This document shows positions 8,381 to 37,748 of a DNA stretch of 42,926 nucleotides, piece after piece. Under the pieces are notes generated by a model that saw only the letters and a program-made list of their open reading frames with translations, searched no databases and was not told the DNA's origin. Numbering within the stretch: the first letter of the stretch is position 1; every line of letters starts with the position of its first letter. Source of the DNA: a bacterium (GTDB taxonomy: Bacteria > Patescibacteriota > Minisyncoccia > Phycocordibacterales > UBA5272); contig JAHFNC010000006.1 of the NCBI GenBank assembly GCA_023267535.1, forward strand, positions 1 through 42,926, written 5' to 3'. Made by a program: the position numbers and the translations under genes.

Positions 8381-10102
8381 ATGGAAACGGACGAAAAAAA
8401 CTATCTTTCTAAAATAAAAAAATATCTACTTAAAATAAAAGTAGCTTATAAGTCTTTGTCACCAGAAAAAGTCTTAATTGTCTGGTCTTTGTTTGCACTA
8501 TCAATAGTTTTAATGTTTTCCGCTTTAATAATAGTAAACAATAGATTCGTTAAAGTTATACCTAAATTAGGTGGATCTATAAGTGAAGGAATGATTGGAA
8601 CACCGAGATTTATAAATCCAGTCTTGGCAACATCGGATCAAGATAATAGTTTAACAGCTCTAATATTTGCTGGGCTAACCAAAAGAGACGAGAGTGGAAA
8701 TATTATTCTTGATATGGCGGAGTCGATAGATGAAAGTGACGACAAATTAAATTACGATATCGTAATTAAAAAAGATGCCCAATTTCACGATGGAGTAAAA
8801 TTAACTGCGGACGATGTTATATATACTATATCTCTAATACAAAATTCTTTAATTAAAAGTCCGCACAGATTAGAGTGGGAGGGCGTAACTCTAGAAAAGA
8901 AAAATGATAATGAGATCTTGTTCTCTTTAAAAAAGCCCTACCCTCTTTTTATGAACGTGTTAACAATTGGTATTCTCCCAAAACACATTTGGAAGAATTT
9001 AACGGAGGAACAATTTAGTTTAAGTGAATACAATATTAAAGCTATCGGCAGCGGTCCATTTATGATTAGCAGCATACAAAATAATTCTGGTATTCCGACT
9101 TCATTCAAACTTGTATCAAATAAATACTATACACTTGGTAGACCTTACCTAGATGAAATAGATATAAGGACATATCAAAATGAAAAATACTTAATGCAAG
9201 CATTAAAGGATGGAGAAGTAAGTAGAATCTATGGAATATCTCCAGAAAAATTTGAGACTTTAAAAATTTCTACCAGCACCATTAAAACATCTCTTCTGCC
9301 AAAGACAATAACTATTTTCTTTAACTCAAATAAAGTCGAAGCCTTATCTGATAAAAAAATTCGCCAAGCTCTTAATATGGCAATCAATAAAGATGAGATT
9401 GTGCAAACTGTATTAAAAGGTTATGGAAAAACGGTAGACGGGCCTTTCCCTTTTGATGAAGGTGATGTTTCAAATGTTTACAATGTTGATCAAGCTAAGG
9501 AATTATTAAGTGAAAGTAAATATAGCAAGAAAGCATCTAGCACTCTTAGTCTGACACTTTCAACTGTTAATACAGATGAGTTAAAAAAGGTTGCCGACAT
9601 GATAAAGACTGACTGGGAAAAGATTGGTGTCACTACTACTATCTTGGTTTACGAACCATCAGATTTAAACCAATCAGTTATAAAAGATAGAGATTATCAA
9701 ACACTTCTTTATGGAACTCTAACTGAAACACCGAGTGATTTATATGCCTTCTGGCATTCAAGTCAAAGAAATTATCCCGGACTTAATATCTCAAATTATG
9801 TAAGTAATAAATTGGACACAGAATTAGAAACATTAAAAAACGACAATGATCCGCTAATAAGGATAGATGCTTATGATAAAGCAAAAGAAGAATTTAAAGA
9901 TGAGGTCCCTGGAATATTCTTATACGCACCAGATTTAATCTATATAGCAAACGATAAGGTTGTAACCCCTTTACCAAAATTTAGCTTAGACAACTCATCA
10001 AGATTCGACTTAGTGGAAAAATGGTACGCACGAACAGAAAAAGTTTGGCCAAAAACATACTACAGACCATTAATAGATTTATTAGAAAAAATTATTCATT
10101 AA
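8381..10102 (+). CDS. Peptide/oligopeptide ABC transporter substrate-binding protein (SBP_bac_5 family), membrane-anchored
   Basis: GGSISEGMIGTPRFINPVLA, FHDGVKLTADDVIYTI and IRQALNMAINKDEIV motifs; N-terminal TM. Confidence 0.88.
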   Translation: METDEKNYLSKIKKYLLKIKVAYKSLSPEKVLIVWSLFALSIVLMFSALIIVNNRFVKVIPKLGGSISEGMIGTPRFINPVLATSDQDNSLTALIFAGLTKRDESGNIILDMAESIDESDDKLNYDIVIKKDAQFHDGVKLTADDVIYTISLIQNSLIKSPHRLEWEGVTLEKKNDNEILFSLKKPYPLFMNVLTIGILPKHIWKNLTEEQFSLSEYNIKAIGSGPFMISSIQNNSGIPTSFKLVSNKYYTLGRPYLDEIDIRTYQNEKYLMQALKDGEVSRIYGISPEKFETLKISTSTIKTSLLPKTITIFFNSNKVEALSDKKIRQALNMAINKDEIVQTVLKGYGKTVDGPFPFDEGDVSNVYNVDQAKELLSESKYSKKASSTLSLTLSTVNTDELKKVADMIKTDWEKIGVTTTILVYEPSDLNQSVIKDRDYQTLLYGTLTETPSDLYAFWHSSQRNYPGLNISNYVSNKLDTELETLKNDNDPLIRIDAYDKAKEEFKDEVPGIFLYAPDLIYIANDKVVTPLPKFSLDNSSRFDLVEKWYARTEKVWPKTYYRPLIDLLEKIIH

Positions 10103-12036: not shown

Positions 12037-13206
12037 ATGCACGCAATCATAAGAAATAAGTTGCTTCTAGTCACGTATATAATGACGCTTCTATATGCGC
12101 TTCATTATGGTATTCCACTTTATGCTTCTTCGTCATTTTTGCATCAGTATTTTACTCCAAAAATGATAAGTCTGATTTATGCCGTGAGTGCACTTGTAGC
12201 CATAATAACTTCTGTACACTTCACAAAATACCTAAAAAGATATCACACTTATCGCTTCACAGTGTTTTTAGTAATAACCCAGATCATATCAACCATATCA
12301 GTAGCTTTCAGTGATAATAATTTTTTAGTAGCCTTCTTTTTCATTGCCCATTTCTTTTTATCAGCCCTTATCTTTACGGTACTTAATGTTTTCATTGAAA
12401 ATCTAAGCCCTCACGGAGAAACAGGAATGGTCAGAGGTTTATTTTTAACCCTTCTTAATTTGGGTATTGTCGTTTCGCCATTTATTGGAGCTTCCATTAT
12501 TGCTAGAGAGGGTTACGCTGCTCTCTATGTTGTTGCCGGAATAATGCTTATACCTTTTTTATTCTTTTTAAGAAAATATATGAACCATATGGAAGAGCCA
12601 ACCTATCACAACATAGATTTATGGAGTGCCTTTAGAGATGCGTGGAAAAATGAAAATCTTAGAAACGCACTTGTCGTTGTTCTTTTGCTTCAGTGTTTCT
12701 ATGTAATTATGATTATTTATTCGCCTATCTATGTGACATCGATAGGTATATCATTAACCACTTATTTATCAGCGATACTCCCTCTTGCTTTAACTCCTTT
12801 TATTTTAATGCCTTATGAGCTTGGAATAATAGCTGACACTAAGCTTGGAGAAAAAGAACTGATGATTCTTGGATTGGTAATTATGGCCATAGCAACTCTT
12901 AGTATTGCTGTAATCGAAACCACTAACGTTTTAGTTTGGCTTGCTGTATTTTTGTTTTCAAGAATTGGAGCGGCTTGTGTGGAAACAATGACCTTTTCGT
13001 ATTATTTTAAAAAAATAAGCGCCAAAGATTCTTCTTTAATTGTTTTGTTTAGCAATATGAGTAACTTAGCAACTATGATAGTGGCAGTAATCGGAATAGC
13101 TATCGCCCCTATGTTGGTTACCTATTCTGGAATTATGTTTATAATAATGGGCGTCGCACTATTATTGGGAGTTTTATTTGTAATACCAATACAAGACACA
13201 AAATAA
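12037..13206 (+). CDS. MFS-type transporter
   Basis: 389 aa, about 12 hydrophobic segments, MFS-like organisation. Confidence 0.7.
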   Translation: MHAIIRNKLLLVTYIMTLLYALHYGIPLYASSSFLHQYFTPKMISLIYAVSALVAIITSVHFTKYLKRYHTYRFTVFLVITQIISTISVAFSDNNFLVAFFFIAHFFLSALIFTVLNVFIENLSPHGETGMVRGLFLTLLNLGIVVSPFIGASIIAREGYAALYVVAGIMLIPFLFFLRKYMNHMEEPTYHNIDLWSAFRDAWKNENLRNALVVVLLLQCFYVIMIIYSPIYVTSIGISLTTYLSAILPLALTPFILMPYELGIIADTKLGEKELMILGLVIMAIATLSIAVIETTNVLVWLAVFLFSRIGAACVETMTFSYYFKKISAKDSSLIVLFSNMSNLATMIVAVIGIAIAPMLVTYSGIMFIIMGVALLLGVLFVIPIQDTK

Positions 13207-15032: not shown

Positions 15033-15971
15033 TTAATCGTTAACTCTACTATAAAGATAATGTCCGAGTTCACATCCAGTACTTCCAAGTGATTTCATAA
15101 ATCTTCCATCCTCTCTAAATGACGGTCTACCTTCTACATTAACAACCATATAACTATTCTTATAAGGAATAAGATCCACCAAAACAGCATCGCTTGGTTG
15201 CAAGATATCACAAACAGAAATAGCTGTATCTATAATTTTACTTTTTTCAGAATCCATACAATTTAATAAAACCTGATTGACGGAGTCCTTGTCTGGTAAA
15301 TTCTTTTTATTGTTTAATGTTTTTACCGGTATGGGAGTATAAAATCTCTCGCCTCTATAATTTGGTAAAACGGCCACAGAGAAAGTTTGCTCTTCCTTAT
15401 AACTTAAAATATGAGCATCTATTTTCTTTTCTGTAAAATAATTTATATATTTTACTAAATCTTTAAATCCCCTAACTAGAAAAGATGGCTCACAAGAATA
15501 TCTATCAAGAGCTCTAACTAATACTGGGGTATGAAAAGTTGTCCAAAACTCTTTTAGCTTAAGAATAAGTTTTTCTCCGCCTTCTGTTGATCTAATAACA
15601 ACGGTATCAGGAACTGAAAACCCATCCTGCCTTAATAAACGGTAAATGTTTTCTCTATCGTGATTTATAGGAAAGGATTGATAAGATAACATTTTGGGTA
15701 TACCCATTTTCTCTGCCAGAATATGATAATCATTATTCTTGGAAAATGTTGTATCCACAAAACAGTCCACCGAAGAAAACACCTTATGTGGATTAGTCTC
15801 AAGTCCGGCATTAAACCATTTTCCATCTTTATCAACATAAACATCAATCGCCTTATGACCCAATTTATCAAGAGATAATAAAACACTAGCACCGTCCGTT
15901 AAAGAATTTTTATGAGATATATTTCCGCCTCTAATGACAGCAACTTTAAACAGATGATTATCCGATTTCAT
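15033..15971 (-). CDS. Divergent ATP-grasp protein, D-alanine--D-alanine ligase-like
   Basis: VAVIRGGNISHKNSLTDGASVLLSLDKLGH N-terminus and PVLVRALDRYSCEPSFLV, VVNVEGRPSF; lacks the canonical Ddl EINTxPG signature. Confidence 0.65.
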   Translation of the reverse strand: MKSDNHLFKVAVIRGGNISHKNSLTDGASVLLSLDKLGHKAIDVYVDKDGKWFNAGLETNPHKVFSSVDCFVDTTFSKNNDYHILAEKMGIPKMLSYQSFPINHDRENIYRLLRQDGFSVPDTVVIRSTEGGEKLILKLKEFWTTFHTPVLVRALDRYSCEPSFLVRGFKDLVKYINYFTEKKIDAHILSYKEEQTFSVAVLPNYRGERFYTPIPVKTLNNKKNLPDKDSVNQVLLNCMDSEKSKIIDTAISVCDILQPSDAVLVDLIPYKNSYMVVNVEGRPSFREDGRFMKSLGSTGCELGHYLYSRVND

Positions 15972-26019: not shown

Positions 26020-26940
26020 TTATTTGTTAGTAAAAACCCTATAAATTTCATAATATTCTTTGGCAATCATTTGAATTGCGTCATCTCTAGAAATTTTCTG
26101 ATCACGATACAAAGTAAGAGGTTCCCAGAATATTGTTCTACCGACAGCAAAACCAATTATACCATTTACATTTCTTCCAGCTGTAATCCACTCCCTCACT
26201 CTTTCTTTAGTTTCATTACGACCTAAAATTATAACTCCAACCAATGGACGATTCCCTCTTTCTTGTGCCACAGTAATTATAGATTCATAATCACTCGCAT
26301 TTTCAAACCCTTCAATTTTCCAAACATCAACCACAATTTCAGCTTGATAAAATTCATTAATCATTTTTATAGTCAAATCTTTTCTTAACTCTTTATCAAA
26401 TCTATGTTTATCGTTACCACAAAGTTTTAATTGCTCATCAGTTGCAATCACTAGCGGTTCAATCAACAACATTAAATCATTAGCACTGGCGAAATCAGAA
26501 ACTTTTTTTATTCTTTCTAATTGAATTTGATTATTTTCTTTATTTCCTTCTGCATTATATCTAACCAAAACCTTAGCAAAGGTTGGTTTTATCTCAAGTA
26601 AATGATTTCCAAAATCGTCCCCGAACTCACATTCAAAAATATCTACCCCTGATTTCTCAACTGTTTGCATAGTTATAAATCCGCGAGCCTTAGCATCTTT
26701 CAAAATTTCTTTTCCGTAAATTTCATCTACCAATACTGCCGCATTTTCTCTAGGAATACCAAAATCGATGGCTTTGTCTATAGCCTCATAAATTATTGTT
26801 TTGTAATCAGTTACTGTTTGCTTTTGATTTATATTTAACTCACCTTTAAATGAAAGTAAATTCTCCACAAAAGATGCCCTGTGATCAAAGGGCAAGACAA
26901 ACAAATTCTTATTATATCCCACGGCGTTATTCCTAGTCAT
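26020..26940 (-). CDS. DUF2090/IolC-C-terminal-like class I aldolase
   Basis: NLFVLPFDHRASF, VLVRYN, VVDVWKIEGF (Schiff-base Lys candidate), GIIGFAVGRTIFWEPL. Confidence 0.75.
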   Translation of the reverse strand: MTRNNAVGYNKNLFVLPFDHRASFVENLLSFKGELNINQKQTVTDYKTIIYEAIDKAIDFGIPRENAAVLVDEIYGKEILKDAKARGFITMQTVEKSGVDIFECEFGDDFGNHLLEIKPTFAKVLVRYNAEGNKENNQIQLERIKKVSDFASANDLMLLIEPLVIATDEQLKLCGNDKHRFDKELRKDLTIKMINEFYQAEIVVDVWKIEGFENASDYESIITVAQERGNRPLVGVIILGRNETKERVREWITAGRNVNGIIGFAVGRTIFWEPLTLYRDQKISRDDAIQMIAKEYYEIYRVFTNK

Positions 26941-26977: not shown

Positions 26978-27967
26978 ATGAATGAAGAAAACTTATTTGA
27001 TATAGTCGGAATTGGTGATGTTGTTGTTGACGCTTTTATTAAATTAGAAGTGGGACATACCGAAGAAACAGCCAATGGCGCCGAATATTGTTTGCCTTTT
27101 GGGTCAAAAATCCCTTACGAATCAATGACGGAAGTCCCTGCTGTTGGAAATTCAGCAAATGCCGTAGTTTCTGCGTCTCGTCTTGGACTAAAAACTGCTC
27201 TTGTTTCTTGTGTTGGAAATGATAATGACGGAAAGAAGTGTGTAGAAAAATTAAAGAAAGAAAATGTTTCAACCAACTTTATAAAAGTAGAAGAAAACAA
27301 AAAGACTAACTATCATTATGTTTTGTGGTTTGGTGACGATAGAACCATACTTATCAAACACGAAAATTTTCATCCAGAATTAGATGATGCAAAAACAAAA
27401 TGGATTTATCTGTCATCAATTGGTGAAAATGAAAAATATCTTCATGATGATGTTTTAAAATATTTAGAAAAATATCCAGAAACCAAATTAGCCTTCCAAC
27501 CAGGGACTTACCAATTAATATTAGGAAAAGAATTATTGCCGATTTATAAAAAAGCTACTGTAGTTTGTATGAATAAAGAAGAAGCTAAAGAATTGCTAGA
27601 AACAAATAGCGATGACATAAAAGAATTGTTGGAAGGTGTTGCCTCAATGGGTCCACAAACAGTATTAATAACTGACGGAGCAAATGGTTCTTATGTAAAA
27701 TATGATGGCACACTTTTATTTATGCCTACTTATCCTGATATAAAGACACCTTACGAAAGAACTGGCGCTGGAGATGCTTTCTTTTCGACTTTCGTTTCTT
27801 ATATGGCCAAAGGTTTCGATGAAAAACACGCTATACAAAGAGCTCCTATTAACGCGATGAACGTTGTTCAGTGCATTGGTGCTCAAGAAGGATTATTGTC
27901 AGAAGAAAAAATAGAAGAATATTTAAAGAACGCACCTGAAGATTACAAACTTGAAATATTAGTTTAG
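26978..27967 (+). CDS. PfkB-family carbohydrate kinase
   Basis: GNSANAVVSASRLGLKTALVSCVGND and ERTGAGDAFFSTFVSYMAKG signatures. Confidence 0.92.
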   Translation: MNEENLFDIVGIGDVVVDAFIKLEVGHTEETANGAEYCLPFGSKIPYESMTEVPAVGNSANAVVSASRLGLKTALVSCVGNDNDGKKCVEKLKKENVSTNFIKVEENKKTNYHYVLWFGDDRTILIKHENFHPELDDAKTKWIYLSSIGENEKYLHDDVLKYLEKYPETKLAFQPGTYQLILGKELLPIYKKATVVCMNKEEAKELLETNSDDIKELLEGVASMGPQTVLITDGANGSYVKYDGTLLFMPTYPDIKTPYERTGAGDAFFSTFVSYMAKGFDEKHAIQRAPINAMNVVQCIGAQEGLLSEEKIEEYLKNAPEDYKLEILV

Positions 27968-28381: not shown

Positions 28382-29353
28382 CTAAACAATTACAGATTTT
28401 ACTTTCTCCACAATATGTTTTGCTGTTAATCCGTATTCTTCGTATAAATCTTTCATCTTACCGCTTTGACCAAATCTGTCTTCAATACCAACTCTAACAA
28501 TTTTCATTGGATGATGTTCGCTCAAAAATTCAGCCACAGCACTTCCTAATCCTCCTGCTACTTGATGTTCTTCAACTGTCACTAACGATTGCACATTTTT
28601 AACAAAGCGAAGTAGAAATGAAGTATCAAGTGGTTTTACTGTTGGCATATTTACAACCGTTACTCCAATCCCCTCTTTTTCAAGAAGTCTTGCCGCTTTC
28701 ATGGCTTCATAAATAACTGGACCACAAGAAATTATTCCCACCCTGTAATTGAATTCCTTTTTAGGCAAATGAATTATATAAGCCTTACCAAGAAAGAACT
28801 TATAATTTTCATCTAAAATAACCGGCGTGTTTTCTCTGGTTAAGCGAATATATGCCGGATGATTAAAATCAAGCATTGTCTTAGTTATTTCGCGAGCCTC
28901 AATATAATCACAGGGCACAAAGACATTCATATTTGGAATAACGCGCATAAGAGCGATATCTTCAATAGCTTGATGTGTGGCACCGTCTGGTCCGACTGAC
29001 ACTCCGGCGTGAGCACCAATTATTTTTACTGGTTGATTGTTGTAACAAATTGTCGTCCTGATTTGCTCCCAATTTCTCCCTGGAGAAAACATAGCATAGC
29101 TAGCAATAAACGGAACATAACCCATAGAAGCCATACCAGACGCAACTCCTGACATTGCTTGTTCAGTAATACCCATTTCGAAAAATCTTTTTGGATATTC
29201 TTTTTTAAATAAATTCATCTTCACACTGTCGGTCAAATCAGCACAAAGTGCCATTACTCGCTCATCTTTTCCGATAGAAAGCAGTCCTTCACCAAATCCT
29301 TCACGAGTTGGTTTTTCTTCTTCATTAATTGTAAAAAGGTTTTTGTTTAACAT
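28382..29353 (-). CDS. Transketolase, C-terminal half
   Basis: VMALCADLTDSVKMNLFKKEYPKRFFEMGITEQAMSGVASGMA. Confidence 0.93.
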   Translation of the reverse strand: MLNKNLFTINEEEKPTREGFGEGLLSIGKDERVMALCADLTDSVKMNLFKKEYPKRFFEMGITEQAMSGVASGMASMGYVPFIASYAMFSPGRNWEQIRTTICYNNQPVKIIGAHAGVSVGPDGATHQAIEDIALMRVIPNMNVFVPCDYIEAREITKTMLDFNHPAYIRLTRENTPVILDENYKFFLGKAYIIHLPKKEFNYRVGIISCGPVIYEAMKAARLLEKEGIGVTVVNMPTVKPLDTSFLLRFVKNVQSLVTVEEHQVAGGLGSAVAEFLSEHHPMKIVRVGIEDRFGQSGKMKDLYEEYGLTAKHIVEKVKSVIV

Positions 29354-29354
29354 A

Positions 29355-30221
29355 TTAATCTCCAGAGTGTGTTACTTTTCCACGAAACGACCGCAATTCC
29401 TTTAACGCTTCTTTTGCTTCTTCTTCATTTGGAGCTTTACCATGCCAGTTGAAGTTGCCTTCAAAATCTTTTACCCCACGACCTGGAATAGTATGAGCAA
29501 TTATCACTGTTGGTTTATTCAAAATACTTTTTGCTTGCCATACTGCTCCGGCAATATCGCGAAAATTATGTCCATCAATTTCGATAACATTTAAATTAAA
29601 ACTTTCTAATTTATCTTTTAGTGGTTCCAGTGGCAAAACATCTTCCGTAAAACCATCAATCTGAATTGTATTTCTGTCTATTATAGAAATAACTTTATTT
29701 AATTTATTTTTCCCAAGCAATAAAAATGATTCCCAGACTTGTCCCTCATCCATCTCCCCGTCTCCCATCAAACAATAAAAATATCTGTCTGGCTTATGCT
29801 CTTCAAATTTATCAATAAGTGCCATTCCAATAGCTTGAGATAATCCGCAACCAAGTGGCCCTGATGTTGTCTCAAGTCCAGGGAGTGATTCACGATGTGG
29901 ATGACCCTGAAGTCTTGTTCCAAAGGCTCTTAATGTTTTTAATTCTCCAACTGGAAAATAACCAGCAAAAGCTAAAGTAGCATACAAGACAGGAGCGATA
30001 TGGCCATTTGATAAAATCACCCTATCTCTTTGATTCCAAGCAGGATGTTTCGGATTATGATTTAACAATCTAAAATACAAACAAGTAAAAATATCAGCCA
30101 TTCCAAGAGGCCCGGCAGTGTGTCCAGAACCGGCAGAAAGCAACATTTTTATTATATTTTCCCTTATATCTTCAGCACGAAGCGTCAGAGCCTTTACTTC
30201 AACATCAGTTAAAGAATTCAT
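29355..30221 (-). CDS. Transketolase, N-terminal (TPP-binding) half
   Basis: SAGSGHTAGPLGMADIFTCLYF, GDGEMDEGQVWES, IDGHNF. Confidence 0.94.
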   Translation of the reverse strand: MNSLTDVEVKALTLRAEDIRENIIKMLLSAGSGHTAGPLGMADIFTCLYFRLLNHNPKHPAWNQRDRVILSNGHIAPVLYATLAFAGYFPVGELKTLRAFGTRLQGHPHRESLPGLETTSGPLGCGLSQAIGMALIDKFEEHKPDRYFYCLMGDGEMDEGQVWESFLLLGKNKLNKVISIIDRNTIQIDGFTEDVLPLEPLKDKLESFNLNVIEIDGHNFRDIAGAVWQAKSILNKPTVIIAHTIPGRGVKDFEGNFNWHGKAPNEEEAKEALKELRSFRGKVTHSGD

Positions 30222-33556: not shown

Positions 33557-34297
33557 TTAAATAAGGGAATCTATGATTTCCATTGTTTCTTTTGGTCCTT
33601 TGGTTTCCATAGTTTGAATCCCAGTTTGTATAACCACCGCATCATTTCCTCCAGCAAAAAGTGCGTCTCCAATATAAACCATTTCAGAAATTGGAACAGA
33701 AAGTTTTTCTGATAACCACTTGATTGAATAAGTTTTGTTAATTCCCTTTTTAGTAATATCAATTGATGTTCCTCCGCCGATTGATACTTCGTATTCAGGA
33801 AGTAATAAATCAAGTCGAGATTTTAAATCTTTTCTTTTTGCTCCATCTGGGTCAAAGGCGTGTTTCAAATCAACTGGCGCTTCTTGCCCCAAAGCAGATA
33901 AAGTAACTTGAGCTCCGCGATTTTCTATTCTTTCTCCGTAGGAAGGTTGTCCTTCTAAAATTTTTGTTTCTTCTAAAACAGAATTAAGCGCATTTATGAT
34001 TTTTGTCGTCTCAACTTCCGTCATAGCAAATGTGTATTGCTCTACCCAAGAGTTTCCATCAAAAGCTAAACACTGCGCCGCGCTTTGCGGAAATGAATAT
34101 AAATTTTTAAAGTTAGCATCTTTCGGAAGATGATTGATAAATTGATTTAACTGTTGTTCAAACTTTGCACCAGAGACAATCGCCACAGGCATCACCGCTA
34201 AAAGATTTGTAAAATGTGTGACCATTTCATCGCTCACGGGTTGTTTACTTTCGGTTAAAGTGTCATCAAGATCAAATAAAGCTATTCTGTATTTCAT
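33557..34297 (-). CDS. HAD-superfamily phosphomannomutase-like protein
   Basis: IALFDLDDTLTESKQPVSDEM, IENRGAQVTLSALGQEAP, YIGDALFAGGNDAVV; overlaps the upstream GH130 gene by 4 nt. Confidence 0.8.
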   Translation of the reverse strand: MKYRIALFDLDDTLTESKQPVSDEMVTHFTNLLAVMPVAIVSGAKFEQQLNQFINHLPKDANFKNLYSFPQSAAQCLAFDGNSWVEQYTFAMTEVETTKIINALNSVLEETKILEGQPSYGERIENRGAQVTLSALGQEAPVDLKHAFDPDGAKRKDLKSRLDLLLPEYEVSIGGGTSIDITKKGINKTYSIKWLSEKLSVPISEMVYIGDALFAGGNDAVVIQTGIQTMETKGPKETMEIIDSLI

Positions 34298-36237
34298 TTT
34301 ACAATTTTTTTAATTAATTCTTTTGGTAAAAGCACATCAAGTAATTTTGAAAGGGAACATTTCGCCACGCCCACCACCGAATCCCCTCCTCCATAATAAA
34401 CAAAAATATCATCTCCTCGCAAAACTGATCCGCAAGGAAATACTACATTGTTTATTTGTCCTTCTTTCTCGTATTTTTCTTGTGGCTCAAATAATGGCTG
34501 AGCTAAACGAGAAATAACATAAGTCGGATCATACAAATCAAGTAGTGCCGCTCCAATACGATACACACCCTCTTCCGAAACACCGTGATAAAAAAGTAAC
34601 CAGCCAACTTCGGTCTTAATCGGTGGACCAGCGATGCCAACTTTTCTACTATCCCACATCCCAGGTCTCGGCATAAGTATCTCAATACAACGATTAAACA
34701 TCTTACCATCATCTTTTAGTGATAATAAAAAGTCTGCACAAATTTGATTTCCAATTCTATGAAAAACTAAATACCCATACCCGAATTTTGCCGGCACAAT
34801 ACAAGCATCTTTGTCATCAATCGTTACCGGCGAAAGCACTCTGGGTTTTGACCATTTAGAAAATTTCCCAGCGACAAAATCTTTCACAGAAATATTAGTG
34901 ATCGCTACCGCCGGTGGATGCACACCGTTATACGCGGTGTATAACATATATAATTTATCATCAATTTGAGTTATTCTCGGGTCTTCGCAACCAGAATTTC
35001 CACTAGGCTGGACTCCCTTTTGTTCAAAGTCTTCTCTTGGAACATAAATCGGCTCATCTCTTCTTTCGGTAATGGTGACACCATCGTGACTAATAGCTAA
35101 ACCAATGGTTGAAGTGTTATCTTCCGACATCGCACGATACAAAATATAAATCACGCCATCTATTTCTATGGCCGCTGGATTAAACACTGCTCTAGCTTCA
35201 AAAGCATTTTCTTTTTTCGGAAGAAGAATTGGATTTTTTGGAAAGCGCGCCATAAGTGGAGTTCCTGTTTCTTTCATTGTCTCAAGAAGGTCATCACAAG
35301 AAAGAGAGGCTCTGGCGACAACTGTATCTGCTCCACCATAATAAATATCTAACTTTCCATTTTCATATAAAAGCGCTCCACTTGGAAAAGTAATATTTTT
35401 TACCATTCCATATAATTCATAAGAGGCTTCTGGCACAATTATCGGCCCCTTGGTGCGACCAAGAATATGGAATGGGGACAATTTATCAAGCAACACCGCC
35501 TCAATACCAAATATCCGCCTGCTCTCATCAAAATAATGTTGTATGTGCGAATAAACAATCAACCAACCATCTTTGGTTAAAATTGGTGCCGCTCCGACTT
35601 CACAATGGTCGTGTTCCCCTCTTTCCAAAACCAAAATATCTTTTTTGTAATCTTTATACCACTCGTTCCAAAATTCTGCATTCCAAAAATCTTTTACTTC
35701 ATCGGCTTGAACAATAGCAATATGCGCTGGTGGCATATCAGTGTGCATAGTTAAAATCGCCGTTACTTTGCCATTTATTCTTTCTGGAAAAAGCGCCATT
35801 GCTTTAGCATTAAAAGGTGTAACCAAATGTTTCTCAGAAATATTTTCCAAATCATCACTCACCGCACAACAAACTTTAATTCCTTCGGCGCGAAATGGCA
35901 CTTCCGAAAGTCCTGTATAAAAAATATAATATTTACCTTCAAAAAAAGTTACTCGTGGATCTTCACAGCCATATTTATCAAAATCATCATTCGGAATAAT
36001 CAAAGGAGTGGTGACATCAAAATGATTTCCGTCTTTTGATGAAGCCTTAGCGATAATAGAAGTGTTAACTTGTGGAGACAAAATCAAATCCGGCTTACCG
36101 ACCGCACGATAAACAATATGCAATTCTTTATTTTTTCCACGCACTGGGCAACCATTAAGTGCTGCCACCGATTCCCAAGAACGATCAACACTGGGTTGCA
36201 AAATTGGATTATGCCTAGAACGATGGACGGTATACAT
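34294..36237 (-). CDS. Tandem two-domain GH130-family glycosidase/phosphorylase
   Basis: Two modules, each with CEDPR and a terminal PCGS/FPSG...YYGGxD motif. Confidence 0.85.
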   Translation of the reverse strand: MYTVHRSRHNPILQPSVDRSWESVAALNGCPVRGKNKELHIVYRAVGKPDLILSPQVNTSIIAKASSKDGNHFDVTTPLIIPNDDFDKYGCEDPRVTFFEGKYYIFYTGLSEVPFRAEGIKVCCAVSDDLENISEKHLVTPFNAKAMALFPERINGKVTAILTMHTDMPPAHIAIVQADEVKDFWNAEFWNEWYKDYKKDILVLERGEHDHCEVGAAPILTKDGWLIVYSHIQHYFDESRRIFGIEAVLLDKLSPFHILGRTKGPIIVPEASYELYGMVKNITFPSGALLYENGKLDIYYGGADTVVARASLSCDDLLETMKETGTPLMARFPKNPILLPKKENAFEARAVFNPAAIEIDGVIYILYRAMSEDNTSTIGLAISHDGVTITERRDEPIYVPREDFEQKGVQPSGNSGCEDPRITQIDDKLYMLYTAYNGVHPPAVAITNISVKDFVAGKFSKWSKPRVLSPVTIDDKDACIVPAKFGYGYLVFHRIGNQICADFLLSLKDDGKMFNRCIEILMPRPGMWDSRKVGIAGPPIKTEVGWLLFYHGVSEEGVYRIGAALLDLYDPTYVISRLAQPLFEPQEKYEKEGQINNVVFPCGSVLRGDDIFVYYGGGDSVVGVAKCSLSKLLDVLLPKELIKKIVK

Positions 36238-36242
36238 AATTA

Positions 36243-37379
36243 TTAGTTTACACTCCCATGATTAATAAGCCAATCCAAAAGTGGATTTAAATCCGTGTAA
36301 GCAGCGCAAACATATTTGTCTCCCCCACCATAATAAACATATAATCTATCTTTTCCTTCGTGTTCTTTAACTATCGCTCCACAAGCATAAACAATTCCTG
36401 GCTTCCAATCATTCTCATACCAAGAGTCTGGTTCAAGAAGTGGCAAGACCGATTGAGCGATTACCTTTCTTGGATTTTTCAAATCAAGTAATTGCGCTCC
36501 AAGTTTATATTTATGTGGTTCAGAATCTTGATTGGCATGATAAAGCACAAGCCACCCCTTTTCTGTTTTAAGTGGTGGTGGCCCAGCTCCACGAATACGA
36601 GACTCCCAGCCACCTTCTCTTCCTGAAGTGCGCACTCCGACCGGACTTTTTATAAATGGTTCAGTGATTCCAATATCAGTCAGCGAATCTCGGTATTCAA
36701 TTTCTACTTTCGGAGAAATTGAATGAAGCACCGCAAACTTCCCTCTAATTTTTTCTGGAAAGACCATCCAGTTTTTATGAATCTCTTGCGGAGGAGAAAT
36801 AAGTATCGGTTTACTCCACGCCGACCATCTCTTTTGCAAAAAATCTTTTTCACTAATCATTGTTAATCCAATACGAATAAAATCCCAACCATCAAAAGCG
36901 TTGAAGGTCATATAAATAGTTCCATCAATACAAACAATTCTTGGGTCTTCACACCCGCCGAAGCTTCCACCGGATGGATACATTACTGGGTCAAATTTCT
37001 GTAGCCCTTTATAAATGAGTCTTGGCTTTTCAAAAGAAAAAGCTGGGTAAGTGTCACCATTTCCAAAATGAAATCCATCTTTGCTCGTTGCATATCCGAC
37101 TCGTGACACACCATCAGAGCCAACTGCTCGGTATAGCATATGAATATCATCACCGATTTTAATCGCCGCCGGATTAAACACTCCTTCGCTTTCCCATGAC
37201 AAATGTTGTCTAGGACTTAGTATTGGATTTTTTTCATTTCTAGTTAACGAGTGTTTAACGGGAGCCAATTTCCCTTTTTTTCTTTCAAAAAAAAGAAAAA
37301 TACCAACCCCAACCAAAACAACAATCGCTATTAAGCCAATCTGGTTAACGAGTGTTGTAAAAGTTAGCGGTTGATCCAT
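36243..37379 (-). CDS. N-terminally membrane-anchored GH130-family protein
   Basis: LIAIVVLVGVGIFLFFERKKGK TM anchor then FNPAAIKIGDDIHMLYRAVG, GGCEDPRIVCIDG, YVYYGGGDKYV. Confidence 0.85.
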   Translation of the reverse strand: MDQPLTFTTLVNQIGLIAIVVLVGVGIFLFFERKKGKLAPVKHSLTRNEKNPILSPRQHLSWESEGVFNPAAIKIGDDIHMLYRAVGSDGVSRVGYATSKDGFHFGNGDTYPAFSFEKPRLIYKGLQKFDPVMYPSGGSFGGCEDPRIVCIDGTIYMTFNAFDGWDFIRIGLTMISEKDFLQKRWSAWSKPILISPPQEIHKNWMVFPEKIRGKFAVLHSISPKVEIEYRDSLTDIGITEPFIKSPVGVRTSGREGGWESRIRGAGPPPLKTEKGWLVLYHANQDSEPHKYKLGAQLLDLKNPRKVIAQSVLPLLEPDSWYENDWKPGIVYACGAIVKEHEGKDRLYVYYGGGDKYVCAAYTDLNPLLDWLINHGSVN

Positions 37380-37394
37380 AATTATTAAAATAAA

Positions 37395-37748
37395 CTAGGC
37401 TCGTCCGTATTTGTCTTCTATTCTTTCTATATCATTTTCATCAAATTCTCCAAAGGCAATTTCAAGGATAATGACCTCTTTATCCCCGGCCTCAACTCTA
37501 TGCTCAGTCTCAGGTGGTACCGTCATTTCATCTCCAACTAAAACATTTCTTTTGTCATCACCAATGGTAATTACTCCAGTTCCGGAAATGATTTTCCAAA
37601 ACTCACTTCTATGAGAATGTTTTTGTAAACTAAAAGATTCGTTAGGTAGAACTGTGATTATTTTTACTGTTGATTTTTCGTTCAAAGTAAAACGTTCAAA
37701 ACTCCCCCACGGTCTTATTTCTTTATCATAAGATTTTAACGGGTCCAT
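37395..37748 (-). CDS. Cupin-type mannose-6-phosphate isomerase (PMI type II-like)
   Basis: RPWGSFERFTLNEKSTVKIITVLPNESFSLQKHSHRSEFWKIISGTGVITIGD...PPETEHRVEAGDKEVIILEIAFG. Confidence 0.9.
   Translation of the reverse strand: MDPLKSYDKEIRPWGSFERFTLNEKSTVKIITVLPNESFSLQKHSHRSEFWKIISGTGVITIGDDKRNVLVGDEMTVPPETEHRVEAGDKEVIILEIAFGEFDENDIERIEDKYGRA

Follow-up and report, generated by a model that had tools for sequence, protein, structure and literature searches.

What would a genome of 652 kb do with three GH130 propellers encoded next to two predicted enzymes of mannose phosphate metabolism? This question is raised by a contig of 42,926 nucleotides (JAHFNC010000006.1 of assembly GCA_023267535.1, our C10; "the window" is this whole stretch) from a bacterium of the Patescibacteriota lineage UBA5272, whose genome is 94.3% complete. 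One minus-strand run encodes a cupin similar to phosphomannose isomerase (PMI), a single GH130 protein, a tandem GH130 protein and a HAD protein of the phosphomannomutase (PMM) type. Our best explanation, whose chance of being right we put slightly short of even, is that these genes form one unit which would interconvert intracellular beta-1,2-mannan (or mannoside) and fructose 6-phosphate (F6P), the net result being a mannogen-like carbon reserve. By computation we obtained the set of genes, the identities of their domains, the patterns of residues, the linkage and co-occurrence and, at the sensitivity used, the absence of alternative routes.

The cassette and its conservation

The genes and domains of the cassette are the following:

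37395..37748, minus strand: type II PMI-like cupin, 117 aa (Pfam MannoseP_isomer, PF01050, 2.6e-22)
36243..37379, minus strand: single GH130 propeller, 378 aa, with an N-terminal transmembrane helix (Pfam Glyco_hydro_130, 4.4e-37)
34294..36237, minus strand: tandem GH130 gene, both propellers (Pfam Glyco_hydro_130, 9.2e-96, two domains)
35260..36237, minus strand: N-terminal propeller of the tandem (N-half), residues 1-326 (residue table over 26 genomes; separate clade)
34294..35259, minus strand: C-terminal propeller of the tandem (C-half), residues 327-647 (NCBIfam BMBP, 259 bits; residue table)
33557..34297, minus strand: HAD-IIB protein of the PMM/alpha-phosphoglucomutase (alpha-PGM) group, 246 aa (Pfam PMM, PF03332, 8.4e-9)

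Gaps of 15 nt and then 5 nt separate the first three genes, and the tandem GH130 and HAD genes overlap by 4 nt (ATGA). The open reading frames (ORFs) lie exactly where an earlier note on this DNA had placed them, so that its gene order, strand and overlap are borne out, and hidden Markov models (HMMs) confirmed the families. By HMM the whole genome contains exactly three GH130 domains, all of them in the cassette. The three propellers exceed the Pfam GH130 cut-off and carry the catalytic Asp in an ED(P)R motif (26/26 genomes for each tandem half, 25/25 for the single propeller).

The note had also named gene order in relatives as a check, and a conserved neighbourhood was found both within the genus and across the phylum. 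The GH130 trio is present in 6 of 16 genus genomes. The HAD occurs in exactly these genomes (6/6 versus 0/10 without the trio) and the cassette-type PMI is confined to the same six (Fisher p = 1.2e-4 for each co-occurrence, n = 16, shared ancestry uncorrected). Five of the six keep the order PMI-single-tandem-HAD, if a PMI at C17:7186-7527 is counted for G017; in G014 some 5 kb separate the PMI from the rest. The cassette occupies different genomic sites among genus members. Since the arrangement recurs in five genomes of the same genus and across the phylum, it is a real cassette and not a chance grouping. When 100 tandem proteins were placed in a tree, one clade took in five of the six from the genus and G014 fell outside it, which fits mostly vertical inheritance with losses plus one separate acquisition.

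Two genus genomes hold further related genes. G006 has a frame of 474 aa with a distant PMI match (35%), likely a ManC-PMI fusion, and no GH130. G011 has an extra short GH130 of 271 aa (L049:9289-10104), which lies outside the cassette and is followed downstream by a homologue of window ORF 15033-15971.

Across the phylum, 55 of 380 sampled genomes gave a GH130 match and about 22 carry the full set of three domains. A further 80 loci came from scanning named genomes: most belong to Patescibacteria (Nomura-, Taylor-, Adler-, Zambryski-, Kaiser-, Campbell-, Levy-, Peregrinibacteria and others) and a few to Omnitrophota, Chloroflexota, Syntrophaceae, Babeliales and archaeal bins, where bin contamination is possible. 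The single gene adjoins the tandem gene on the same strand in 95 of 103 non-redundant loci. Their partners include a PMI at 40 loci, the HAD at 39 and an RfaE/TagD-type nucleotidyltransferase at 17, with at least one of these at 57. A conventional phosphoglucomutase (PGM)/PMM lies beside the GH130s in L224 (HMM-confirmed) and L216 (a C-terminal fragment, by inspection). In L114 (7635-11480) the whole propeller set is contained in one protein of 1281 aa with four PF04041 stretches.

Sugar and phosphate sites of the propellers

Further information about the three propellers was obtained by aligning them with the Teth514 enzymes, Lin0857 and Uhgb_MS, using 26 genomes for the tandem halves and 25 for the single protein. 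Common to all three, without exception, are Asn and Asp at subsite -1, Arg at subsite +1, the ED pair and the beta-1,2-linked Lys. The Lys equivalent to BT3780 Lys199 has been tied to beta-1,2 specificity (PMC4599007), and the invariant Lys of the cassette propellers aligns with the NKDA Lys of 7fip. Teth514_1788/1789 are the best solved relatives. The predicted specificity can be narrowed to the beta-1,2 type.

We took as the mark of a phosphorylase the presence of the H-R, K/R and YH basic residues, by alignment with the Teth514 enzymes. In the C-half these phosphate-site residues are complete in 26/26 genomes (His493, Arg494, Lys532 and His551, always or almost always conserved), Asp419 and Lys476 are kept as well, and the C-half is predicted to be a beta-1,2-mannan phosphorylase. 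The site of the single propeller is partial, with His in 25/25, YH in 18/25 and Arg in 8/25. The N-half retains the acid Asp93 together with Asn28, Arg44, Lys145 and Asp304, and its phosphate basics are gone in the 26 genomes (H to L/F, R to T, K/R to H/Q, YH to YS/YA). The view of the earlier note that the GH130 proteins may be phosphorylases is supported for the C-half, the only propeller with all catalytic and phosphate residues, in part for the single propeller, and not for the N-half. The catalytic split between the tandem halves would be a clean case of a glycoside phosphorylase duplicate that lost its phosphate site and kept its sugar site.

According to its residues, the N-half is predicted not to be a phosphorylase and may be mannosidase-like, transferase-like or chain-binding. 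Like BT3780-type beta-1,2-mannosidases, it keeps the sugar-binding residues and lacks the phosphate-binding basics. Its Glu213 and Asp167, both invariant, fall approximately near the positions of Glu227 and Glu268, the acidic catalytic base residues of BT3780. Unlike those mannosidases, however, the N-half is cytosolic, is fused to a phosphorylase propeller and is matched better by phosphorylase models (160 bits) than by the BT3780 model (69 bits). To call it a hydrolase is a proposal.

The N-halves form one clade in the domain tree (100/100) and the single propellers another (100/99), which branches with the C-halves. The best PDB match is 9fj8 for the whole tandem (2.4e-57) and 9fj8/7fip for the single protein. 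The AlphaFold model of the tandem has a mean predicted local distance difference test (pLDDT) of 92.6 and finds 9fj8 as its best Foldseek match (template modelling score, TM-score, 0.91); the AlphaFold2 model of the single protein has a pLDDT of 88. Against NCBIfam NF052550, the beta-1,2-mannobiose phosphorylase equivalog with a cut-off of 450 bits, the whole tandem scores 414, the C-half 259 and the single protein 184. By these scores the cassette GH130s are relatives of the equivalog and not members.

The transmembrane helix of the single protein spans about residues 7-35, by hydropathy and by the AlphaFold helix at 7-35. Basic residues come after it, both in the window and in relatives from the genus, and from this we predict a cytosolic catalytic domain. 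Other relatives have, in place of the helix, a tail very rich in Lys and Arg or a second, divergent propeller. N-terminal tails of this kind, of about 40-80 residues, are found in L093, L094, L095, L099, L100, L101 and L102, and they resemble polyanion-binding tails. No signal peptide was seen on the GH130 proteins.

A proposed route from mannan to fructose 6-phosphate

The HAD protein reaches 36 bits against PF03332 (cut-off 22.4), also matches HAD-IIB, and has the motifs FDLDDT (DxDxT) and GD....GGND aligned with 4bnd and 6i5x. By these matches it is a member of the eukaryotic-type PMM/alpha-PGM group, and its predicted function is a mutase between mannose 1-phosphate (Man1P) and mannose 6-phosphate (M6P). 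Its description as PMM-like in the earlier note stands as regards the group, which is not that of an unrelated phosphatase. Its closest solved relative, however, is 4bnd, the alpha-PGM of L. lactis (2.2e-40; PMM 6i5x, 6e-15), leaving glucose 1-phosphate as a possible substrate. This relative favours an explanation by glucose-type sugars, in which the HAD would be an alpha-PGM, the GH130s would act on another beta-mannoside (e.g. Man-Glc) and the cassette would be a generic hexose-1-phosphate route. We regard it as very improbable, given the PMI cupin in the cassette, GH130s of the beta-1,2-mannan type and a genome with no detected phosphoglucose isomerase (PGI), where glucose 6-phosphate would be a dead end.

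The cupin scores 79.6 bits against PF01050 (cut-off 23.6) and 77 bits against the C-terminal part of NCBIfam GMP_PMI, and its QKHSHRSEFW matches the metal/substrate motif QxHxHRxExW. It is the only PMI-like gene found in the genome, and we predict a type II PMI that isomerizes M6P and F6P.

The substrate, the direction, the reserve role and all enzyme activities we infer. The C-half would phosphorolyse beta-1,2-mannan with inorganic phosphate to alpha-Man1P, or elongate chains from Man1P; the HAD would interconvert Man1P and M6P, and the cupin M6P and F6P. The N-half would bind the same beta-1,2-mannan but make no use of phosphate, and it could hydrolyse the chain, act as a transferase or hold the chain in place. 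The single propeller, tethered by its helix or a poly-Lys tail and derived from the C-type, could be a second phosphorylase or a chain-handling enzyme on the cytosolic side.

Other routes for these intermediates were searched for. By profile search PGM_PMM_I, the conventional PGM/PMM, is absent from all 16 genus genomes. PGI was not found in the window genome and matched in 1/16 in the genus; this sole match (G006:C26:9466-10557) has one in-frame TAA. In the window genome we detected no NTP_transferase (sugar-nucleotide pyrophosphorylase), no homologue of the RfaE/TagD-type nucleotidyltransferase or of ManC, and no BPD_transp_1 (binding-protein-dependent ABC permease). Motif scans, a weaker kind of evidence, found no glycogen phosphorylase or synthase. 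With PGI, PGM/PMM, pyrophosphorylases and BPD permeases all missing, the cassette is the only hexose-1-phosphate/6-phosphate route found in the genome.

The earlier note had proposed either salvage of mannosides or a reserve. Of the three findings that it named as refuting its idea, none was made; the proposed route through Man1P, M6P and F6P is supported in part, and salvage is weakened. For salvage, host or environmental beta-1,2-mannosides would be imported and phosphorolysed, and the Man1P would pass through M6P to F6P, at a saving of one ATP per hexose. This needs the same reactions as a reserve cycle and follows the usual direction of phosphorylases; moreover, an ABC importer accompanies Teth514_1788/1789, the closest enzymes that have been characterised, and these have been read as salvage (PMC4264767). 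However, the genome has no BPD_transp_1 permease, neither an importer nor a secreted mannanase recurs beside the cassette in 107 loci, and no GH130 signal peptide was seen. Three distinct propellers, one of them without a phosphate site, also exceed what salvage would call for. We consider it unlikely, though well worth keeping in mind. A family 5 ABC solute-binding protein is encoded at 8381-10102 of the window, an orphan in this genome.

The cassette could also serve to synthesize a beta-1,2-mannose surface or lipid-linked glycan: PMI and HAD would make Man1P, a nucleotidyltransferase would activate it in some lineages, and the tethered GH130s would elongate or trim chains at the inner membrane face. 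The membrane or polycationic tether points in this direction, as does the presence of Uhgb_MS, deposited as 'mannoside synthase', among the structural relatives. So do the 17 loci with an RfaE/TagD-type nucleotidyltransferase, which is fused to the PMM-type HAD beside the GH130 pair in three, L101 (10210-11457), L214 and L217, and the one locus with a ManC-like gene. The fusion suggests sugar-1-phosphate activation in those lineages, and such neighbours may mean that some lineages make activated mannose. However, the window genome has neither a nucleotidyltransferase homologue nor NTP_transferase, and no flippase, glycosyltransferase or exporter recurs beside the cassette in the 107 loci. We judge this explanation decidedly unlikely.

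A mannogen-like cycle is favoured over both import salvage and surface-glycan synthesis. The reserve role follows for us from the cytosolic location, the lack of an importer and the lack of another use for the intermediates. Several points weigh against it. At the phosphate levels of a cell, phosphorylases generally work in the direction of degradation, and this thermodynamic argument, with the missing sugar-nucleotide donor, speaks against a net synthesis by the window genome; in other lineages the nucleotidyltransferase may be the answer to that problem. A major facilitator superfamily protein at 12037-13206, or an unknown importer, might still provide for import, and the absences are provisional because of the genome completeness given above. 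None of the tested partners lies within 5 kb at about 46 of the 103 non-redundant loci, and across the phylum PF03332 does co-occur with the trio, but loosely (9/22 versus 46/358).

Known systems and neighbouring genes

The enzyme families are already known. The closest known operon is the Thermoanaerobacter X-514 cluster, with Teth514_1788/1789, five ABC transporter genes, GH5, ManC and GT4 (PMC4264767). The cluster and the cassette both have two adjacent GH130s of the beta-1,2-mannan type, with Man1P as product, in the cassette by prediction, and the Thermoanaerobacter enzymes are the nearest solved structures to the C-half. They are single-domain proteins, whereas the cassette has tandem and tethered propellers, a PMI and a HAD mutase, and no ABC importer or ManC was found in the window genome.

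The closest known cycle, though unrelated in sequence, is Leishmania mannogen, an intracellular beta-1,2-mannan made and degraded by the five-bladed propellers of the GT108 MTPs (PMC8950772). The likeness is in fold only (TM-score of the tandem 0.66 with MTP4, 6q50, and 0.69 with MTP2, 6q4y), and GT108 membership was rejected, as MTP chains are absent from the PDB profile matches up to E = 5. Leishmania synthesis uses GDP-mannose, for which the canonical route was not found in the window genome.

In the open-access literature we found no prior description of a GH130 cassette in Patescibacteria. The closest report, on the CPR genome of Microgenomates bacterium Ch65, describes two GH130 genes which lack signal peptides and were read as intracellular, and it gives no cassette, linkage or mechanism (PMC7143001). 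It is tempting to propose, tentatively and with doubt outweighing belief, that a beta-1,2-mannan reserve driven by phosphorolysis exists in many Patescibacteria as well as in a few other bacteria and archaea, served by a three- or four-propeller machine with one propeller lacking phosphate chemistry and by a self-contained PMI and mutase, in cells without detectable glycogen or other hexose-1-phosphate routes. If true, reduced, host-dependent bacteria would be able to buffer carbon and energy in a way that has so far been known only in Leishmania and its relatives, and the retention of hexose-phosphate enzymes in some genomes and their absence from sister genomes would be explained.

The suggestion of the earlier note that F6P feeds the adjacent transketolase/RPE/RpiB/GAPDH genes was not borne out by gene order: the adjacency is conserved in none of the relatives inspected (L044-L048), and these genes were ruled out as module members. 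Downstream of the cassette, L045 instead has genes for glycerate kinase, enolase and pyruvate kinase. Also rejected as members were a DUF2090 aldolase, found in the window genome and in none of the other 15 of the genus, and a PfkB kinase, found in 16/16. In the window the DUF2090 gene (26020-26940, minus strand; IolC C-terminal/tagatose-bisphosphate aldolase-like) is divergent from the PfkB gene (26978-27967, plus strand), possibly an unusual aldolase/kinase pair. The transketolase is split into N- and C-terminal subunit genes (28382-30221).

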